64,000 bases of DNA, taken from an uncultured Nitrosomonas sp. Lineage in GTDB: Bacteria > Pseudomonadota > Gammaproteobacteria > Burkholderiales > Nitrosomonadaceae. Below, in pieces: positions 32,057 through 63,639 of this stretch. The notes below the pieces were generated by a model. It was given only the letters and a program-made list of their open reading frames with translations. It searched no databases and was not told the origin of the DNA. Position 1 is the stretch's first letter. The number at the start of each line of letters is the position of its first letter. Made by a program: the position numbers and the translations under genes. The DNA lies in the NCBI GenBank assembly GCA_902826115.1, contig CADEDO010000009.1, positions 1 through 64,000 of the forward strand. The letters are read 5' to 3'.

Positions 32057-32401
32057 TCCTAAGTAAAAAATATAGTCTGATTTATGTTGAAAAAAGTTGA
32101 TTTTATCAAGCGAAAGCAGAGTTTACTATAAACAAAGGTAAGCTCAATAAATTATCCTTATGCATACGCTAAGAGAATCTCATAAGCATTTGAGATTATG
32201 AGTGATTGATATAGATAAAACACAGAATCTTTTTGTTGATCCGCCACTCATATTATGACTGCTATTTACATAGCTAAACAGCAATAGAGCAATTTACAAA
32301 ACCATTGCTTTTTTCAATTCACACCTTTAGAATCTTGCTCGTTACTTGCTATCTAAATATTTCAATAAAATGATTAAATTAGATAAGCCAGTACATCAAA
32401 T
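32057..32401. other. intergenic region ahead of the guanidine riboswitch
   Basis: This AT-rich stretch must hold the promoters of the divergent aminotransferase gene and the riboswitch-controlled operon. Candidate elements such as TTGCTA (32346) do not form a convincing pair at standard spacing. No gene is visible. Confidence 0.4.
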
Positions 32402-32502
32402 GGAAACTAGGGTTCCGGTCAGTGCAATACGGCGTCAGGTCCAAGAGTTTCCGGTCTCGTAAATAACGAGACTCCACGGAGGGAAAAAAGCCCGGGAGGT
32501 TA
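32402..32502 (+). promoter_or_regulatory. guanidine-I riboswitch aptamer (ykkC class)
   Basis: The conserved core blocks of the guanidine-I class appear in order: ACTAGGGTTCCG (from about 32405), GGTCCAAGAG (32438-32447), a variable hairpin with CTCGT/ACGAG arms, then ACGGAGGGAAAAAAGCCCGGGAGG (32476-32499, given here only as a location). The spacing to the downstream permease gene is about 60 bp. This class binds guanidinium and switches genes on. The match rests on recalled consensus, and agreement over all blocks makes the call strong. Confidence 0.93.
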
Positions 32503-32548
32503 AGGTGTAATGTATTCAGGTACATTACAATCTCGGTAAAACCTTTTT
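32497..32548 (+). terminator. riboswitch expression platform (intrinsic terminator)
   Basis: A 9-bp perfect stem, TGTAATGTA (32506-32514) with TACATTACA (32521-32529), is extended by AGGTT (32497-32501) pairing with AACCT (32540-32544) and followed by a run of five T. The left outer arm overlaps the conserved 3-prime end of the aptamer. Guanidine binding would therefore compete with the terminator and permit transcription. Confidence 0.75.
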
Positions 32549-32563
32549 GTATGGAGACTTGTT

Positions 32564-34000
32564 ATGTCGGATTCAACAAAACCAACCGCTTCTTCTCATG
32601 ATGCCCATGTAACTGGCGATATGCTCAATCGCAGCATGAGCGTGTGGCATAGTTTTACGCTCGGGTTTGCGGTGGTCTCACCGGTGGCCGGACTTTATGC
32701 CATCATTGGTGTGCAAACTGTAGTCGCCGGTGGCGGTTGGTTTGCTGCACTGGCGGTTTGTTTGCTCATGCAGTTACTGGTCGCGACTGTTTACGCCGAA
32801 TTGTCTTCACAGTTCCCGATTGCCGGTGGCGCCTATAAATGGGCGCGGCAACTCGGTGGCGTCATCGCCGGACAGTATGCAGGCGTGATTTATATCTGCT
32901 CCACCATCGCCATGGTCACGACAACCGCTTATACCGGCGGCTTCTGGCTGGCCACTTTTTTAGGGCTGCCTGATGCCGGCGGCGGGATGATGGTGCTGTG
33001 GGGCGCTCTGTTTCTGTTTCTCTGCACGCTCCTCAATTTGGCGCCCGTCAGTATTTTCAATCTGGTGATCAAACTGGGGGTTTACGCAGAAGTCGTCGGC
33101 TCGCTCGGTGTAGCGCTACTGTTATTTATTTTCTTTCGCCAGCATCCTGTGTTGGAATTGTTTCAGCACATGGGCACCGGAACAGCACCTAGTGAAATGT
33201 CCGCTTTTTTGGCGGCACTGGCTATTTCCGGTTGGGCTTTCATCGGTTTTGATGCCTGCTCCACCACGGCAGAAGAAACCCATCAACCTAAACGCATGGT
33301 ACCACGTGCAATTTTCATGTCGCTACTGGTAGTCGGCACAGTCGTCTTATTTAATTCAGCTTCGCTGATTTTAGCCTTTGATCATGACACCTTGAGAAAT
33401 TCCAGCCACACTTCCGATCCAGTCACGCCCTTGATTGCCAATAGTATTGGAGACTGGTTCGAAAAACCTTTTCTGGCCATTGTGATGACTGCATTCCTAG
33501 CTTGCGGCGCATCCATGGTCAAGTACACCTCGCGCATTGTGTATTCCATGGCACGGGAAGGCAATATGCCAGCCCTGCTGAGCCAGGTAACCACCAGCAA
33601 AACGCCACGAAACGCGATTTTGTTTACGGTTTTGCTAGCAGGTTGTGGATTGATATTTGGACTCAATGATGATGCCGTGGCCACCATCATTGCATTCGGT
33701 ACCGGCGGTTTATACGCCATGTTTACGTTCACAACAGGATTTGGATTGTTTGCCCGTCTTACCGGCCGGTGGAATCCGGAACTGGGTGAACTGAAGCTCG
33801 GAATCTATGGACTAATAATCAATGTACTGGCATTTATCTGGTCATTGTTTGAACTCATCAACATTGCTTGGCCACGCCCATATGCCATTTCTGCCGATGC
33901 GCCCTGGTGGCAATTATGGGCAACTCCCTTGGTATTGGGAACCATTCTAACGATTACCACGCTGTATATCCTGGGCAAGAAATGGACAGCCGCGAAGTAA
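32564..34000 (+). CDS. APC-family permease, probable guanidine importer
   Basis: This 478-residue permease has about 12 helices and belongs to the amino acid-polyamine-organocation superfamily. The family signature around AVVSPVAGLYAIIG (helix 1) and QFPIAGGAYKWARQLGG (helix 2) is clear. Its position directly behind a guanidine-I riboswitch and ahead of guanidine-degrading genes suggests it imports guanidinium. Related permeases next to urea-carboxylase-like genes were formerly called urea or amino acid permeases. GGAG lies seven bases before the ATG. G+C is visibly higher than in flanking genes. Confidence 0.85.
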   Translation: MSDSTKPTASSHDAHVTGDMLNRSMSVWHSFTLGFAVVSPVAGLYAIIGVQTVVAGGGWFAALAVCLLMQLLVATVYAELSSQFPIAGGAYKWARQLGGVIAGQYAGVIYICSTIAMVTTTAYTGGFWLATFLGLPDAGGGMMVLWGALFLFLCTLLNLAPVSIFNLVIKLGVYAEVVGSLGVALLLFIFFRQHPVLELFQHMGTGTAPSEMSAFLAALAISGWAFIGFDACSTTAEETHQPKRMVPRAIFMSLLVVGTVVLFNSASLILAFDHDTLRNSSHTSDPVTPLIANSIGDWFEKPFLAIVMTAFLACGASMVKYTSRIVYSMAREGNMPALLSQVTTSKTPRNAILFTVLLAGCGLIFGLNDDAVATIIAFGTGGLYAMFTFTTGFGLFARLTGRWNPELGELKLGIYGLIINVLAFIWSLFELINIAWPRPYAISADAPWWQLWATPLVLGTILTITTLYILGKKWTAAK

Positions 34001-34028
34001 AATCATCTTAAAAAGGAATCTATCTATC

Positions 34029-34763
34029 ATGAACCAACCCAACACGCTGATTTGGAAACAAACTATTCCAGGAGGATGCCACTGGTCTGGCATCATACGC
34101 CGCGGCACGACGCTGCGCATGACCGATGTTGATGGCGGTGCCAATGCAGCCGTTTTGCTGTTTAATCAGGAAGAAAAGCTCGAGCGTTACAACATGGCGG
34201 ATACCTTGAAATCACAGCATACTTTTCGCCTGACCAAAGGCCACGCCTGCCATTCCGATATGGGGCGAATCTTTTGCTGCATCACAGCAGATACCGCCGG
34301 GTGGAATGATACCGTGTGCGGATTGAGCGATGCTGATTTGACTCAACAAAAATATGGTACGGCGCGCTACCAGGAACATCGCAATCAGATGTTTCGCAGC
34401 GGTTTGGATGGTATGTTGATCGAACTGGGCAAATGGGGTTTAGACATGCGCGACATCACTTCGAACATCAACTTTTTTAGCAAAGTGACTACGGATGCTT
34501 CCGGTGAATTGACCTTCCAAGCGGGAAACAGCAAAGCCGGCGATTATGTTGATCTGAGTTTCGTGATGAACACATTGGTGGTGCTATCGACAGCCCCCCA
34601 TCCACTGGATCCCAAAACATCGTATCAACCTGGCGCGGTTAATCTGGAAGTATTCGACACACCGCCGGAAGCGATCACGGAATGTTTGCACATCTCAGAA
34701 AATACCCGTGCATTAAAAAATACACAGCATTTTTATTGTGGAGGCAAAAATGAATCAGCCTAA
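34029..34763 (+). CDS. DUF1989 protein, carboxyguanidine deiminase-type subunit (UAAP1)
   Basis: This 244-residue protein is the first of two related DUF1989 proteins formerly named urea amidolyase-associated proteins. In characterised systems the pair (CgdA/CgdB) removes ammonia from carboxyguanidine to give allophanate. Conserved points include HACHSDMGRIFCCI, TAGWNDTVCG and the DITSNINFF segment. AAGGA precedes the start. Its last codons overlap the start of the second subunit, which implies coupled translation of a complex. Which subunit corresponds to CgdA or CgdB I do not assign. Confidence 0.88.
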   Translation: MNQPNTLIWKQTIPGGCHWSGIIRRGTTLRMTDVDGGANAAVLLFNQEEKLERYNMADTLKSQHTFRLTKGHACHSDMGRIFCCITADTAGWNDTVCGLSDADLTQQKYGTARYQEHRNQMFRSGLDGMLIELGKWGLDMRDITSNINFFSKVTTDASGELTFQAGNSKAGDYVDLSFVMNTLVVLSTAPHPLDPKTSYQPGAVNLEVFDTPPEAITECLHISENTRALKNTQHFYCGGKNESA

Positions 34764-35421
34764 ACTTATTGAAAGCCAGCTTGATCCCCGTCACGCAATC
34801 ATCGATGAAATCTGTGCAGCCGGAGAACCTTGGGTTAAGGTCGTCAAACAGGGTCAAACTTTCCGTATCGTCGATTTAGAAGGCAATCAAGCCGTTGATA
34901 CGTTATTTTTTAACGCTCATAACGCTCTGGAACGCTATAGTGTTACCGATACGATACGCGCACAAAATAAACTGTATCTCACTACCGACAGCAAACTGTG
35001 CTCAAATTTTGGCAAGGTGATGCTGACGATCGTAGCCGATACCTGTGGGCGTCATGACACTTTGGGAGGCGCCTGTGCTGCAGAAAGCAATACGGTACGC
35101 TATGCACTGGAAAAATATCCGATGCATAGCTGCCGGGATAATTTCCTGCATGCTTTGGCGCATGACAGTACTTGTCACCAGTTGCATATGAGCAAACGCG
35201 ACTTGCCGAATAACATTAATTTTTTCATGAATGTTCCGGTCACTGAAGAAGGCCGATTGGAATTTGACGATGGCATTTCTGCACCTGGCAAATATGTCGA
35301 AATGCGCGCTGAGATGGATGTTTTGGTATTGATCTCGAATTGCCCGCAGTTAAATAATCCGTGCAACGCCTACAATCCGACGCCGATTCAATTGCTGGTT
35401 TGGGATCAGCGATCCAATTAA
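34750..35421 (+). CDS. DUF1989 protein, carboxyguanidine deiminase-type subunit (UAAP2)
   Basis: This 223-residue protein is the second DUF1989 subunit, paralogous to the preceding gene over its whole length. Shared motifs are VDTLFFNA, LERYSVTDT, a Cys-containing ADTCGRHDTLGGAC and KRDLPNNINFFMNV. The frame is open from GTG 34738. ATG 34750 is chosen because GGAGG (34740-34744) lies five bases ahead and the protein then starts MNQPKLIES. It overlaps the end of the first subunit gene by 14 bp and is followed 27 bp later by the carboxylase. Confidence 0.88.
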   Translation: MNQPKLIESQLDPRHAIIDEICAAGEPWVKVVKQGQTFRIVDLEGNQAVDTLFFNAHNALERYSVTDTIRAQNKLYLTTDSKLCSNFGKVMLTIVADTCGRHDTLGGACAAESNTVRYALEKYPMHSCRDNFLHALAHDSTCHQLHMSKRDLPNNINFFMNVPVTEEGRLEFDDGISAPGKYVEMRAEMDVLVLISNCPQLNNPCNAYNPTPIQLLVWDQRSN

Positions 35422-35448
35422 TGGTCGGTCATTCAGGAGGATTCAGTC

Positions 35449-38400
35449 ATGTTTAAAAAAGTGCTCATTGCCAATCGCGGCGCCATTGCCTGTCGCATTA
35501 TCCGCACGCTGCGCCGCATGCAGGTGAAAAGCGTGGCGGTTTACACCGAAGCCGATGCCTTATCGCGACATGTCACCGATGCGGATGAAGCGTATTGCAT
35601 TGGCAGTGGCATTGCCGCTGACAGCTATCTACGCGCAGACAAAATATTGGCAATCGCCCAGCAAGCGGGCGCGCAGGCCATACACCCCGGTTATGGCTTC
35701 CTCAGTGAGAAAGCCGATTTTGCTGAACAATGCATCGCGCACGGCATTCGCTTTATCGGCCCCACCCCGCAACAAATGCGCGCCTTTGGCCTGAAACATA
35801 CAGCGCGCGCTTTGGCCTCGGAAAATCAGGTGCCGCTCCTGCCAGGCACTGATTTGCTGGAAAATCTTGAAGCGGCGTGTCATCAGGCCAAGCATATCGG
35901 TTATCCCGTCATGCTTAAAAGCACCGCTGGCGGCGGCGGCATCGGCATGCGCCTGTGCTGGAATCAGGATGAATTGGCCGGAGCTTACGAATCGGTCAAG
36001 AATCTGGCACAAAACAATTTCAAGGATGCAGGGCTTTTTCTGGAAAAATATGTCGACCAGGCACGTCATATTGAAGTGCAGATTTTTGGCGATGGCAAAG
36101 GCCAAGTGGTCGCGCTGGGTGAGCGGGATTGCTCCATGCAACGACGCAACCAGAAAGTCATCGAGGAAACGCCTGCCCCTCATCTTTCTCCTGCGCTGCG
36201 CCAAGCGTTGCTAGACACTGCGGTGCGCCTGGGCAAAGCCGTCAACTACCAATCGGCAGGAACCGTCGAATATATTTTCAATGCTGCCACCGGGCAATTT
36301 TATTTTCTTGAAGTCAACACTCGTTTGCAGGTCGAACATGGCGTGACTGAGGAAGTGACCGGTATCGACTTGGTGGAATGGATGGTACGGCAAGCAGCCG
36401 ATGATCTGCCTGCATTGGATTCCTTCAATATCCAGCCCAGCGGCGCTTCCATTCAGGTACGGGTTTATGCCGAAAATCCGGCCAAAGACTTTCAGCCTTC
36501 TAGCGGCACGCTGACTGAAGTAGCATTCCCTAACACTGCTCGCGTTGAAACCTGGGTCGAGCGCGGCATTGAAGTATCTGCCTTTTATGATCCAATGTTG
36601 GCAAAAATCATTGTGCACGCGCCCGAACGGGACACTGCCATTGCAAACCTGCTGAGCGTTTTAGAAGGCACAGCGCTACACGGAATTGAAACCAATCTCG
36701 CGTATCTAAAACAAATTCTGCACAGTACCGTGTTTCGCAACGGACAATCCAGCACGCAGTTCCTGAATGGATTTCACTATCAGGCACATAGCATCGATGT
36801 TCTGACTGCGGGTGTACAGACCACGATACAGGATTTTCCGGGGAGAATTGGTTACTGGAATGTGGGTGTTCCTCCTTCCGGACCGATGGATAGCTTGGCC
36901 TTTCGCCTTGCCAATCGACTAGTCGGCAATAGCGAAGACAAGGCCGGATTGGAAATGACTCTGGCAGGTCCCACGCTGCGGTTTAATTGCGACAGCATGA
37001 TTGCCATCTGTGGCGCGCCTATGGATGTGTTTCTGGACAGTGAGCCATTGGCTCAATGGCAGGCGCATCACGTCAAGCCCGGTGCATTATTGCAATTTGG
37101 CAAAGTCAAACAGTCCGGCAGCCGAACTTATCTGGCTGTACAAAACGGCTTCCTGGTACCCGATTACCTGGGCAGCAAATCCACTTTCACATTAGGTCAG
37201 TTCGGTGGGCATGCCGGGCGTGTATTGCGTGTCGGCGATGTTTTGCATATTCAACCAGCACAAGCTTCTCAGCGTTTGCCTGCACAGCATTTGGCGCACG
37301 CATTGATCCCTCATTATACGAATCAATGGGAAATCGCTGTATTGATTGGACCGCACGGCGCGCCCGATTTCTTTACCGAAGCCGATATCGAACATTTTTT
37401 TGCCGCAGAATGGAAAGTGCATCACAACTCCAGTCGCACAGGAATACGCTTGATCGGCCCTAAACCGCAATGGGCTCGAACAGATGGCGGCGAAGCCGGC
37501 TTGCATCCATCCAATATTCACGATAATGCCTATGCGATTGGCGCGGTCGATTTTACCGGGGATATGCCGATCATCCTGGGTCCTGATGGCCCCAGTCTGG
37601 GCGGCTTCGTGTGCCCGGTCACCATCGCCCATGCTGAGCTATGGAAAATCGGACAGCTCAGGCCAGGCGACAGCATCCGCTTTTATCCGATATCGATTGA
37701 GCACGCTAGCAAGCTGGAAAAATACCAGAATTCATTGATCCGGCAGCTTGATATCAGTGAGAATCCACCCGTTGACCATCACCAGCAACCCGGAAACCCA
37801 GTTCTGCATTGCATTCCAGAACATGCGCAACAGGTACGGGTCACTTACCGCCAATCCGGGGATAAATATCTTTTGGTTGAGTATGGCCCCCCTGTACTCG
37901 ATCTGAATTTGCGCTTCCGCGCACATGCCTTGATGACTTGGTTGCAGCAGCGCATCGAAGCCGGCGAGTTAGTTGGCATTGTGGATCTGACACCAGGTAT
38001 TCGCTCGCTTCAAATCCATTTCGATTCCAACCAACTGACACGCGATACTTTGTTGGCTTTATTGATGGCAGGTGAAAGCCTGCTGCCCGCCATTGATGAC
38101 ATGGAAGTACCCACGCGCATTATTCATCTGCCGTTATCCTGGGATGATGTCGCCACGCGGCTGGCCATTGAAAAATACATGCAATCAGTGCGCAGCGATG
38201 CTCCCTGGTGCCCAAGCAATATTGAATTTATTCGCCGCATTAATGGGTTGGACAGTATTGAGGAAGTTCAACATATCCTCTTTTCAGCTAGCTACTTGGT
38301 CATGGGATTGGGGGATGTGTATTTGGGCGCCCCTGTAGCCACCCCTCTCGACCCCCGCCATCGACTCGTTACCACCAAATACAATCCAGCACGCACCTGG

Positions 38401-39069
38401 ACGCCTGAGAATGCCGTCGGTATTGGAGGCGCTTATTTGTGCGTGTATGGCATGGAAGGCCCCGGGGGTTATCAGTTTGTCGGTCGTACCATACCAATGT
38501 GGAATCGTTATCGCCAAACGACTGACTTCAAGGAAGGAAAACCCTGGTTGTTGCGATTCTTTGATCAAATCCGTTTTTATCCGGTTAGCGAAAGCGAATT
38601 ACTAACACTGCGCAAGGATTTCATCAGTGGGCAATTTAAGTTGCGCGTGGAAAAGACTACTTTCAGTTTGAAACAATACCATCAATTCCTGCAGCAAAAC
38701 AGATCATCCATAAATGACTTCAAAACCAGGCAACAAGCAGCTTTTGAAGCTGAACGCGAACATTGGAGAGTGAGCAATCAGGCCATTTTTGTCAATGAAT
38801 CCAATCTGGATGAAGCCGATGCACAAAGTGAGCTGGATTTACCCGAAGGCAGCTATGCCATTGCTTCACCGGTAACGGGCACTGTGTGGAAGATATTGGT
38901 TGAGGTAGGGCAATCCGTAAAGCTTGGAGACCCTATCATCATCGTCGAGTCCATGAAAATGGAAATTGCTGTGGATGCTACCGCCAGCGGACCCGTCCAT
39001 AGCATCCTGTGCCAGAAAAACGAATCGATTTCGGCCGGACAATTACTTGTAGTTATTCAGGAAAATTAG
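35449..39069 (+). CDS. biotin-dependent guanidine (urea-type) carboxylase
   Basis: This 1206-residue enzyme carboxylates guanidine or urea using ATP and bicarbonate. Domains in order are biotin carboxylase (1-445; ATP-grasp GGGGIGM, lid and KVIEETPAP), an AHS2/KipA-like domain (about 450-760), an AHS1/KipI-like domain (about 795-1010), and a biotin carrier with ESMKME, where Lys1170 is biotinylated. No amidase domain is fused. AGGAGG lies ahead of the ATG. Annotation pipelines usually call such proteins urea carboxylase. The guanidine riboswitch and the two DUF1989 partners favour guanidine. The product would be carboxyguanidine. Confidence 0.92.
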   Translation: MFKKVLIANRGAIACRIIRTLRRMQVKSVAVYTEADALSRHVTDADEAYCIGSGIAADSYLRADKILAIAQQAGAQAIHPGYGFLSEKADFAEQCIAHGIRFIGPTPQQMRAFGLKHTARALASENQVPLLPGTDLLENLEAACHQAKHIGYPVMLKSTAGGGGIGMRLCWNQDELAGAYESVKNLAQNNFKDAGLFLEKYVDQARHIEVQIFGDGKGQVVALGERDCSMQRRNQKVIEETPAPHLSPALRQALLDTAVRLGKAVNYQSAGTVEYIFNAATGQFYFLEVNTRLQVEHGVTEEVTGIDLVEWMVRQAADDLPALDSFNIQPSGASIQVRVYAENPAKDFQPSSGTLTEVAFPNTARVETWVERGIEVSAFYDPMLAKIIVHAPERDTAIANLLSVLEGTALHGIETNLAYLKQILHSTVFRNGQSSTQFLNGFHYQAHSIDVLTAGVQTTIQDFPGRIGYWNVGVPPSGPMDSLAFRLANRLVGNSEDKAGLEMTLAGPTLRFNCDSMIAICGAPMDVFLDSEPLAQWQAHHVKPGALLQFGKVKQSGSRTYLAVQNGFLVPDYLGSKSTFTLGQFGGHAGRVLRVGDVLHIQPAQASQRLPAQHLAHALIPHYTNQWEIAVLIGPHGAPDFFTEADIEHFFAAEWKVHHNSSRTGIRLIGPKPQWARTDGGEAGLHPSNIHDNAYAIGAVDFTGDMPIILGPDGPSLGGFVCPVTIAHAELWKIGQLRPGDSIRFYPISIEHASKLEKYQNSLIRQLDISENPPVDHHQQPGNPVLHCIPEHAQQVRVTYRQSGDKYLLVEYGPPVLDLNLRFRAHALMTWLQQRIEAGELVGIVDLTPGIRSLQIHFDSNQLTRDTLLALLMAGESLLPAIDDMEVPTRIIHLPLSWDDVATRLAIEKYMQSVRSDAPWCPSNIEFIRRINGLDSIEEVQHILFSASYLVMGLGDVYLGAPVATPLDPRHRLVTTKYNPARTWTPENAVGIGGAYLCVYGMEGPGGYQFVGRTIPMWNRYRQTTDFKEGKPWLLRFFDQIRFYPVSESELLTLRKDFISGQFKLRVEKTTFSLKQYHQFLQQNRSSINDFKTRQQAAFEAEREHWRVSNQAIFVNESNLDEADAQSELDLPEGSYAIASPVTGTVWKILVEVGQSVKLGDPIIIVESMKMEIAVDATASGPVHSILCQKNESISAGQLLVVIQEN

Positions 39070-39535: not shown

Positions 39536-40924
39536 CTAATAATATTCAGATCTGGCATAGTTTTCAAAGCGTGTATATTCACCCAGGAAAGCCAAATCAA
39601 CTTTACCGATGGGTCCATTCCTCTGTTTACCAATGATAATTTCTGCAACTCCCTTATCCTGAGAATCTGGGTTATACACTTCGTCCCTGTAGATAAACAA
39701 AATCACATCCGCATCCTGCTCAATGGCACCCGATTCTCGCAAATCTGACATCACCGGGCGCTTATTGGGACGTTGTTCAAGACTACGGTTCAGCTGAGAG
39801 AGTGCGATCAGTGGCACTTTAAGTTCCTTTGCCAGCCCTTTTAATGCACGGGATATTTCTGATATCTCAGTAGCGCGATTTTCACCCTGGCTACTGGAAG
39901 ACATTAATTGCAAATAATCCACAACAATCAAACCTAACTCACCATGCTGACGATATAACCGTCTAGCACGCGCTCTGACTTCCAAAGCATTCAGCGCTGC
40001 ACTCTCATCAATAAAAATCGGCGCTTCATTGAGTTTACCTAACGCATGAGTCAATTTTGGCCAGTCCTCATCGTCCAAACGTCCGGTGCGCACTTTATGC
40101 TGATCTAATTTCCCTACGGAGCCTAACATCCGCATTGCCAGTTGCGCGCCGCCCATCTCCATACTGAATACCGCAACCGGCTTATTCAATTCCAGGGCAA
40201 CATGCTCCGCAATATTGAGTGAGAAAGCAGTTTTACCCATGGATGGTCGTCCTGCCACTATGATTAAATCGCCAGGTTGGAATCCGGATGTTTTTTGATC
40301 GAGATCGTGAAAACCCGAAGCGATACCGGTTACGTTACTTGGATTATCTTGGCTATACAGTAATTCAATTCTTTCCACTACTTGCTTTAAAAGTGGCTGG
40401 ATATCCATGAATCCTTCTTTGCCTCGTGCGCCATCTTCGGCAATTTCAAAAACTTTTGCCTCAGCTTCATCCAGCAAATTGGCTGCAGACCGCCCTGCAG
40501 GGTTATAGGCAGAATCCGTTATCTGCACGCCAATTTGCGCCAGATTACGCATAATTGAACGTTCTCGAACAATTTCTGCATAGCGTTTTATGTTAGCTGC
40601 TGATGGGGTATTTTGAACAATTGTGCCAATATAAGCGAGTCCGCCAACGCTTTGCAGTTCTGCTGAAATTTCCAGTGACTCTGCCACCGTAACGACATCT
40701 GCGGGTTTGTTGTGTTCTATCAGTTTACAGATATGATGATAAATCAAGCGGTGATCATGCCGATAAAAGTCACTATCCGTGACGATATCAGCCACTTTCT
40801 CCCAAGCATGATTATCCAGCATCAATCCACCTAAGACCGATTGCTCGCTTTCAATGGAATGGGGAGGAGTTTTATAAGAATCTATCAGTTGATCTTGATT
40901 GATGCTAATAGGTGATTGTGCCAT
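39536..40924 (-). CDS. dnaB: replicative DNA helicase DnaB
   Basis: DnaB is the hexameric helicase of the replication fork. The 462-residue protein has the N-terminal primase-interaction domain (PPHSIESEQSVLGGLMLDN) and a RecA-like C-terminal domain. Visible motifs are Walker A GRPSMGKTAF, Walker B LIVVDYLQLM and the arginine-finger region RSLEQRPNKRP, with DLRESGAIEQDADVI. No intein is present. It follows rplI on the same strand, as in many Proteobacteria, but a hairpin separates the two. Confidence 0.98.
   Translation of the reverse strand: MAQSPISINQDQLIDSYKTPPHSIESEQSVLGGLMLDNHAWEKVADIVTDSDFYRHDHRLIYHHICKLIEHNKPADVVTVAESLEISAELQSVGGLAYIGTIVQNTPSAANIKRYAEIVRERSIMRNLAQIGVQITDSAYNPAGRSAANLLDEAEAKVFEIAEDGARGKEGFMDIQPLLKQVVERIELLYSQDNPSNVTGIASGFHDLDQKTSGFQPGDLIIVAGRPSMGKTAFSLNIAEHVALELNKPVAVFSMEMGGAQLAMRMLGSVGKLDQHKVRTGRLDDEDWPKLTHALGKLNEAPIFIDESAALNALEVRARARRLYRQHGELGLIVVDYLQLMSSSSQGENRATEISEISRALKGLAKELKVPLIALSQLNRSLEQRPNKRPVMSDLRESGAIEQDADVILFIYRDEVYNPDSQDKGVAEIIIGKQRNGPIGKVDLAFLGEYTRFENYARSEYY

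Positions 40925-63562: not shown

Positions 63563-63639
<77 letters not shown>

Follow-up and report, generated by a model that had tools for sequence, protein, structure and literature searches.

Guanidine-degradation genes have been described in 135 of 145 beta-proteobacterial ammonia oxidizers (AOB), where they belong exclusively to the carboxylase pathway and are mostly accompanied by an APC permease predicted to import guanidine (Palatinszky et al., Nature 2024, PMC11410670). In that study, guanidine carboxylases are recognized by aspartates at K. lactis positions 1330 and 1584, residues that go back to Schneider et al. 2020. None of five AOB strains with a complete gene set used guanidine as the sole substrate, and three of the five converted a fraction of it to nitrite, only when ammonium was present (PMC11410670). 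The operon described here resembles those of the beta-AOB in its guanidine-I riboswitch, APC permease, CgdA, CgdB, and carboxylase with aspartates at positions 1330 and 1584; however, the strains tested in PMC11410670 have an allophanate hydrolase (AtzF), which we did not find in this genome. The pathway of Vreelandella, Raoultella, and Klebsiella likewise shares the carboxylase, the deiminase subunits, and the riboswitch class with our locus, but it has ABC importers, AtzF, and an additional guanidine-II riboswitch (PMC12508155, PMC12186494). In Nitrospira inopinata and Synechocystis, guanidine is converted under guanidine-I control to ammonia and urea, with urease acting next, as we propose below; their enzyme, however, is a nickel guanidinase that works without ATP, whereas a biotin carboxylase and a deiminase would do this work here. 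The general interpretation of such operons is already published, and it is the AtzF-less form that departs from it.

Operon architecture and carboxylase specificity

We analyzed a 64,000-nucleotide stretch of DNA (the window) from an uncultured Nitrosomonas. As the first-pass annotation had proposed, a full guanidine-I aptamer precedes an operon of a permease, two DUF1989 subunits, and a biotin carboxylase (Table 1). A cmscan search over the whole window gave a significant match to all 107 positions of the RF00442 model, above its gathering score of 63; the aptamer had been located correctly, except that it begins about 6 bases before position 32402, its first proposed start. By this match, the element is a member of the guanidine-I riboswitch class, predicted to bind guanidine and to control the genes behind it. 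No second guanidine-I match turned up in the 3.09 Mb draft genome, and the riboswitch is present in 54 of 61 genomes of the genus, a panel that includes the window's own genome. The sole further above-threshold Rfam match in the window is a tRNA gene (63566–63639, minus strand).

Table 1 Features of the operon and its leader, in window coordinates
Feature	Position	Strand	Evidence
Guanidine-I (ykkC) riboswitch aptamer	32396–32500	+	Rfam RF00442, 89.7 bits, E 8.4e-15, full length
Probable expression platform	32501–32563	+	Conserved leader layout, 23 aligned leaders
APC-superfamily permease, probable guanidine importer	32564–34000	+	PF13520, 121 bits
CgdA (UAAP1), carboxyguanidine deiminase subunit	34029–34763	+	TIGR03425, 330.8 bits (cut-off 206); PF09347
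CgdB (UAAP2), carboxyguanidine deiminase subunit	34750–35421	+	TIGR03424, 346.8 bits (cut-off 285); PF09347
Guanidine carboxylase (annotated urea carboxylase), 1206 aa	35449–39069	+	TIGR02712, full length, 1961.5 bits (cut-off 1304)

The permease scored 155 bits against TIGR03428, the "urea carboxylase system permease" family, under its cut-off of 740. CgdA and CgdB are, by family scores above both cut-offs, the paired DUF1989 subunits UAAP1 and UAAP2; cgdB starts with an ATG preceded by GGAGG and shares its first 14 bases with the end of cgdA. The large enzyme comprises biotin carboxylase, carboxyltransferase, and biotin carrier domains (Pfam). We placed the end of the operon behind it because the next gene, dnaB (39536–40924), lies on the opposite strand.

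NCBIfam names the large enzyme urea carboxylase. When aligned with the K. lactis enzyme (PDB 5i8i, native numbering), its Asp701 falls on K. lactis position 1330, which is an asparagine there, and its Asp956 on K. lactis Asp1584; the first of these positions is an aspartate in all 50 related sequences examined. The TIGR02712 architecture and the two aspartates together support its identification as a guanidine rather than a urea carboxylase, and likewise the suspicion that the usual name would hide the role in guanidine metabolism.

Leader and probable control of expression

The probable platform consists, in order, of an A/T-rich hairpin (about 32507–32530), the segment UCUCGG, a Shine-Dalgarno sequence GGAG, and the permease ATG. 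UCUCGG can pair with CCGGGA, the 3′ strand of aptamer stem P3. Across the 23 aligned leaders, the hairpin and the UCUCGG-type helix keep their position, with 96.2% of alignment cells paired, and the ribosome site and ATG come after them with near-constant spacing; when the pairing partners were slid by 1 to 3 columns, 33 to 48% of cells stayed paired. Two-sided changes were seen in 9 cells, compared to a mean of 2.1 after shuffling, and the covariation score was 0.195 versus 0.133, with none of 500 shuffles reaching either observed value. All nine two-sided changes fall in the hairpin, and the UCUCGG helix shows G-U variation alone. Folding one leader on its own told us little (z −1.15 and −0.50), and in single leaders the anti-P3 duplex energy beat shuffles at 0.05 or below in only 7 of 43 cases, so that the platform model draws solely on the constant anti-P3 position and the covarying hairpin. 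An intrinsic terminator was looked for in the riboswitch leader and none was found. With moderate confidence, we suggest that control may be exerted at the level of translation; the guanidine-I class has been described as transcription-acting (PMC11410670).

In ten of the related leaders (L005, L006, L012, L029–L031, L035, L041, L056, and L057), what the conserved ribosome site and ATG behind the aptamer serve appears to be a short upstream reading frame rather than the permease (in L035, the carboxylase), whose own start is 140 to 350 bases downstream of the aptamer.

Host genome

The host genome is a Nitrosomonas draft of 123 contigs, and the closest of its named relatives, with 97% identity over the carboxylase, is a metagenome-assembled Nitrosomonas genome. 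It holds two full-length amoC genes, one apparently a lone copy. An AmoA family search of the genome gave no match, and the control of that search matched nowhere either. HAO and nitrosocyanin were not found in the draft; HAO was likewise missed in 25 of the genus panel of 61, well-covered drafts among them, probably through assembly collapse of near-identical copies, and nitrosocyanin is absent from Nitrosomonas sp. Is79 (PMC3764937). Based on amoC and kinship, the host is likely an ammonia oxidizer, as had been supposed.

AtzF and urease in the genus

Directly 3′ of the carboxylase gene, 29 related loci carry atzF; this is not so in the window, whose contig continues into dnaB instead. A search of the whole genome found no full-length AtzF and nothing beyond GatA and an isolated AtzF C-terminal domain of 144 aa, while the identical search scored 780 to 820 bits in 19 congeners. 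Of the known pathway invoked at the outset, the carboxylase and CgdAB are present, but its continuation past allophanate, which in the complete form relies on AtzF encoded in the operon or elsewhere in the genome, was not found. The genome does contain, away from the operon, a complete ureDABCEFG cluster beside a gene resembling a urea transporter; UreC was named by family search and the accessory genes by eye from their translations. Allophanate is unstable and gives urea and CO2 (PMC6219798), and AtzF has been described as avoiding this spontaneous decarboxylation (PMC3944691).

The operon is real, well supported, and of known kind, and its AtzF-less form recurs across the genus. The carboxylase is present in 57 of the 61 genomes and AtzF scores above its cut-off in 20; AtzF is missing from 39 of the 57 carboxylase bearers, and from 31 of the 48 that are at least 90% complete. 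On the carboxylase tree, the presence and absence of atzF imply six changes, at least four of them forced by well-supported branches. In G053, atzF (C1:1990097–1992256) lies away from the carboxylase behind a guanidine-I riboswitch of its own, which supports its belonging to the guanidine regulon (G053 and the genome of L036 give coinciding matches); the window's genome, by comparison, has a single guanidine-I riboswitch. In G011, the atzF copy adjoining the carboxylase is broken.

Within the set of 48, urease occurs in 18 of 31 AtzF-less and 12 of 17 AtzF-bearing genomes (Fisher p 0.54). Since 13 well-covered carboxylase-bearing genomes have neither AtzF nor urease, urease cannot be a general substitute for AtzF, and we rejected that idea at the level of the genus. 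In such genomes, the yield may be limited to one nitrogen, or the operon may serve chiefly to counter toxicity.

Proposed route and its alternatives

From the aptamer, gene order, enzyme families, specificity residues, urease cluster, and failure to find a full-length AtzF, all read from the sequence, we infer the steps of a mechanism. Guanidine binding to the aptamer would switch expression on, probably through release of the permease gene's ribosome site, and the permease would import guanidine. The carboxylase would convert guanidine, with ATP and bicarbonate, to carboxyguanidine, and CgdAB would hydrolyze this to allophanate and one ammonia. Without AtzF, allophanate would decarboxylate to urea and CO2, and urease would release a further two ammonia; carboxylase and deiminase would jointly amount to an ATP-driven guanidinase. 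The most likely route in this genome would thus run from guanidine through carboxyguanidine, allophanate, and urea to ammonia. We give a probability of roughly 0.6 to the reading as a whole, namely a guanidine-induced guanidine-breakdown operon of AtzF-less form that finishes through urea and urease. The ammonia would enter assimilation and, via AMO, make a modest addition to energy metabolism. Because AOB strains failed on guanidine alone, guanidine cannot be assumed to be an energy source through this operon; the suggested link to nitrification has been put to the test in those strains, three of which formed nitrite from guanidine only alongside ammonium.

The operon might instead serve mainly to detoxify guanidine, with one ammonia taken, urea or allophanate lost, and no use for growth. 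The 13 congeners that keep the carboxylase without AtzF and urease would fit this, as would the inability of AOB strains to use guanidine alone and the reported inhibition of N. europaea by 1 mM guanidine (PMC11410670). We nevertheless consider it unlikely here, as the permease is of importer type and not a known exporter, carboxylation costs ATP, and a full urease has been kept in this genome.

That this is the ordinary, complete pathway, with atzF merely missing from the draft assembly, appears improbable. The failure to find AtzF is not proof of absence, because the same 123 contigs also yielded no AmoA, HAO, or nitrosocyanin. However, the repeat collapse that probably accounts for the HAO misses in 25 congeners should spare atzF, which no genome of the panel carries more than once. 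Moreover, the assembly extends across the usual atzF site as far as dnaB. L001, a relative with 97% identity, is without AtzF as well, both beside its carboxylase and genome-wide, and so are the 31 of 48 genomes counted above.

We are highly doubtful of the broader proposal that many Nitrosomonas dropped AtzF and run the carboxylase and deiminase as an ATP-driven guanidinase handing urea to urease, with a stand-alone AtzF C-terminal domain (AH_C) perhaps speeding the decarboxylation of allophanate to urea. A true urea carboxylase, as the NCBIfam name implies, is exceedingly improbable and was rejected on residue 1330, an aspartate instead of asparagine, and on gene context, given the guanidine riboswitch and CgdAB in the operon, the failure to find AtzF, and a urease already in the genome; strain Is79, too, forms no nitrite from urea with a pair annotated as urea carboxylase and allophanate hydrolase and without urease (PMC3764937).

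The first-pass annotation is supported on the specificity, the misannotation, and the host; all of this was already known for most beta-AOB, and experiments weaken its idea of guanidine as an energy source (PMC11410670). In the literature searched, we found no description of the AtzF-less form, although the supplementary tables of PMC11410670 may list it. Most of the Nitrosomonas examined carry the carboxylase, yet about two thirds of the carriers lack AtzF, and so the carboxylase alone would overstate the case if taken as a sign of full guanidine mineralization. Genomes with AtzF, with urease only, and with neither predict different nitrogen yields from guanidine, testable in isolates such as N. 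oligotropha, N. eutropha, and N. communis.

Variant loci

A stand-alone AtzF C-terminal domain protein (AH_C, PF21986) is encoded at L080:4435–4866 (G000 contig C96). Such proteins occur in 17 of 39 AtzF-less and 0 of 18 AtzF-bearing carboxylase genomes, a pattern that may reflect kinship only.

At L035:3661–6018 (minus strand), N. eutropha Nm24 has, beside cgdB, a 786-aa carboxylase paralogue without the biotin carboxylase domain. It retains the carboxyltransferase and biotin carrier domains and an aspartate at the guanidine position, and the full carboxylase gene of that locus is oriented divergently. Similar paralogues matched in G001, G012, G017, G021, G036, G038, and G056, several of them genomes with two guanidine-I riboswitches.

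Four Nitrosospira-like genomes of 1.6 to 2.1 Mb (L030, L031, L041, and L044) keep the riboswitch, permease, and carboxylase, but genome-wide no CgdAB and no AtzF turned up. As carboxyguanidine is reported to revert to guanidine (PMC8390497), these loci would run a futile cycle unless another enzyme acts.

Outside the Nitrosomonadaceae, carboxylases 61 to 77% identical to that of the window were found in L025 and L027 (labeled Nitrospira), L049 (Gallionella), and L050 (a cyanobacterium). L025 is placed inside the Nitrosospira-like group on the tree and is therefore transferred or mis-binned.
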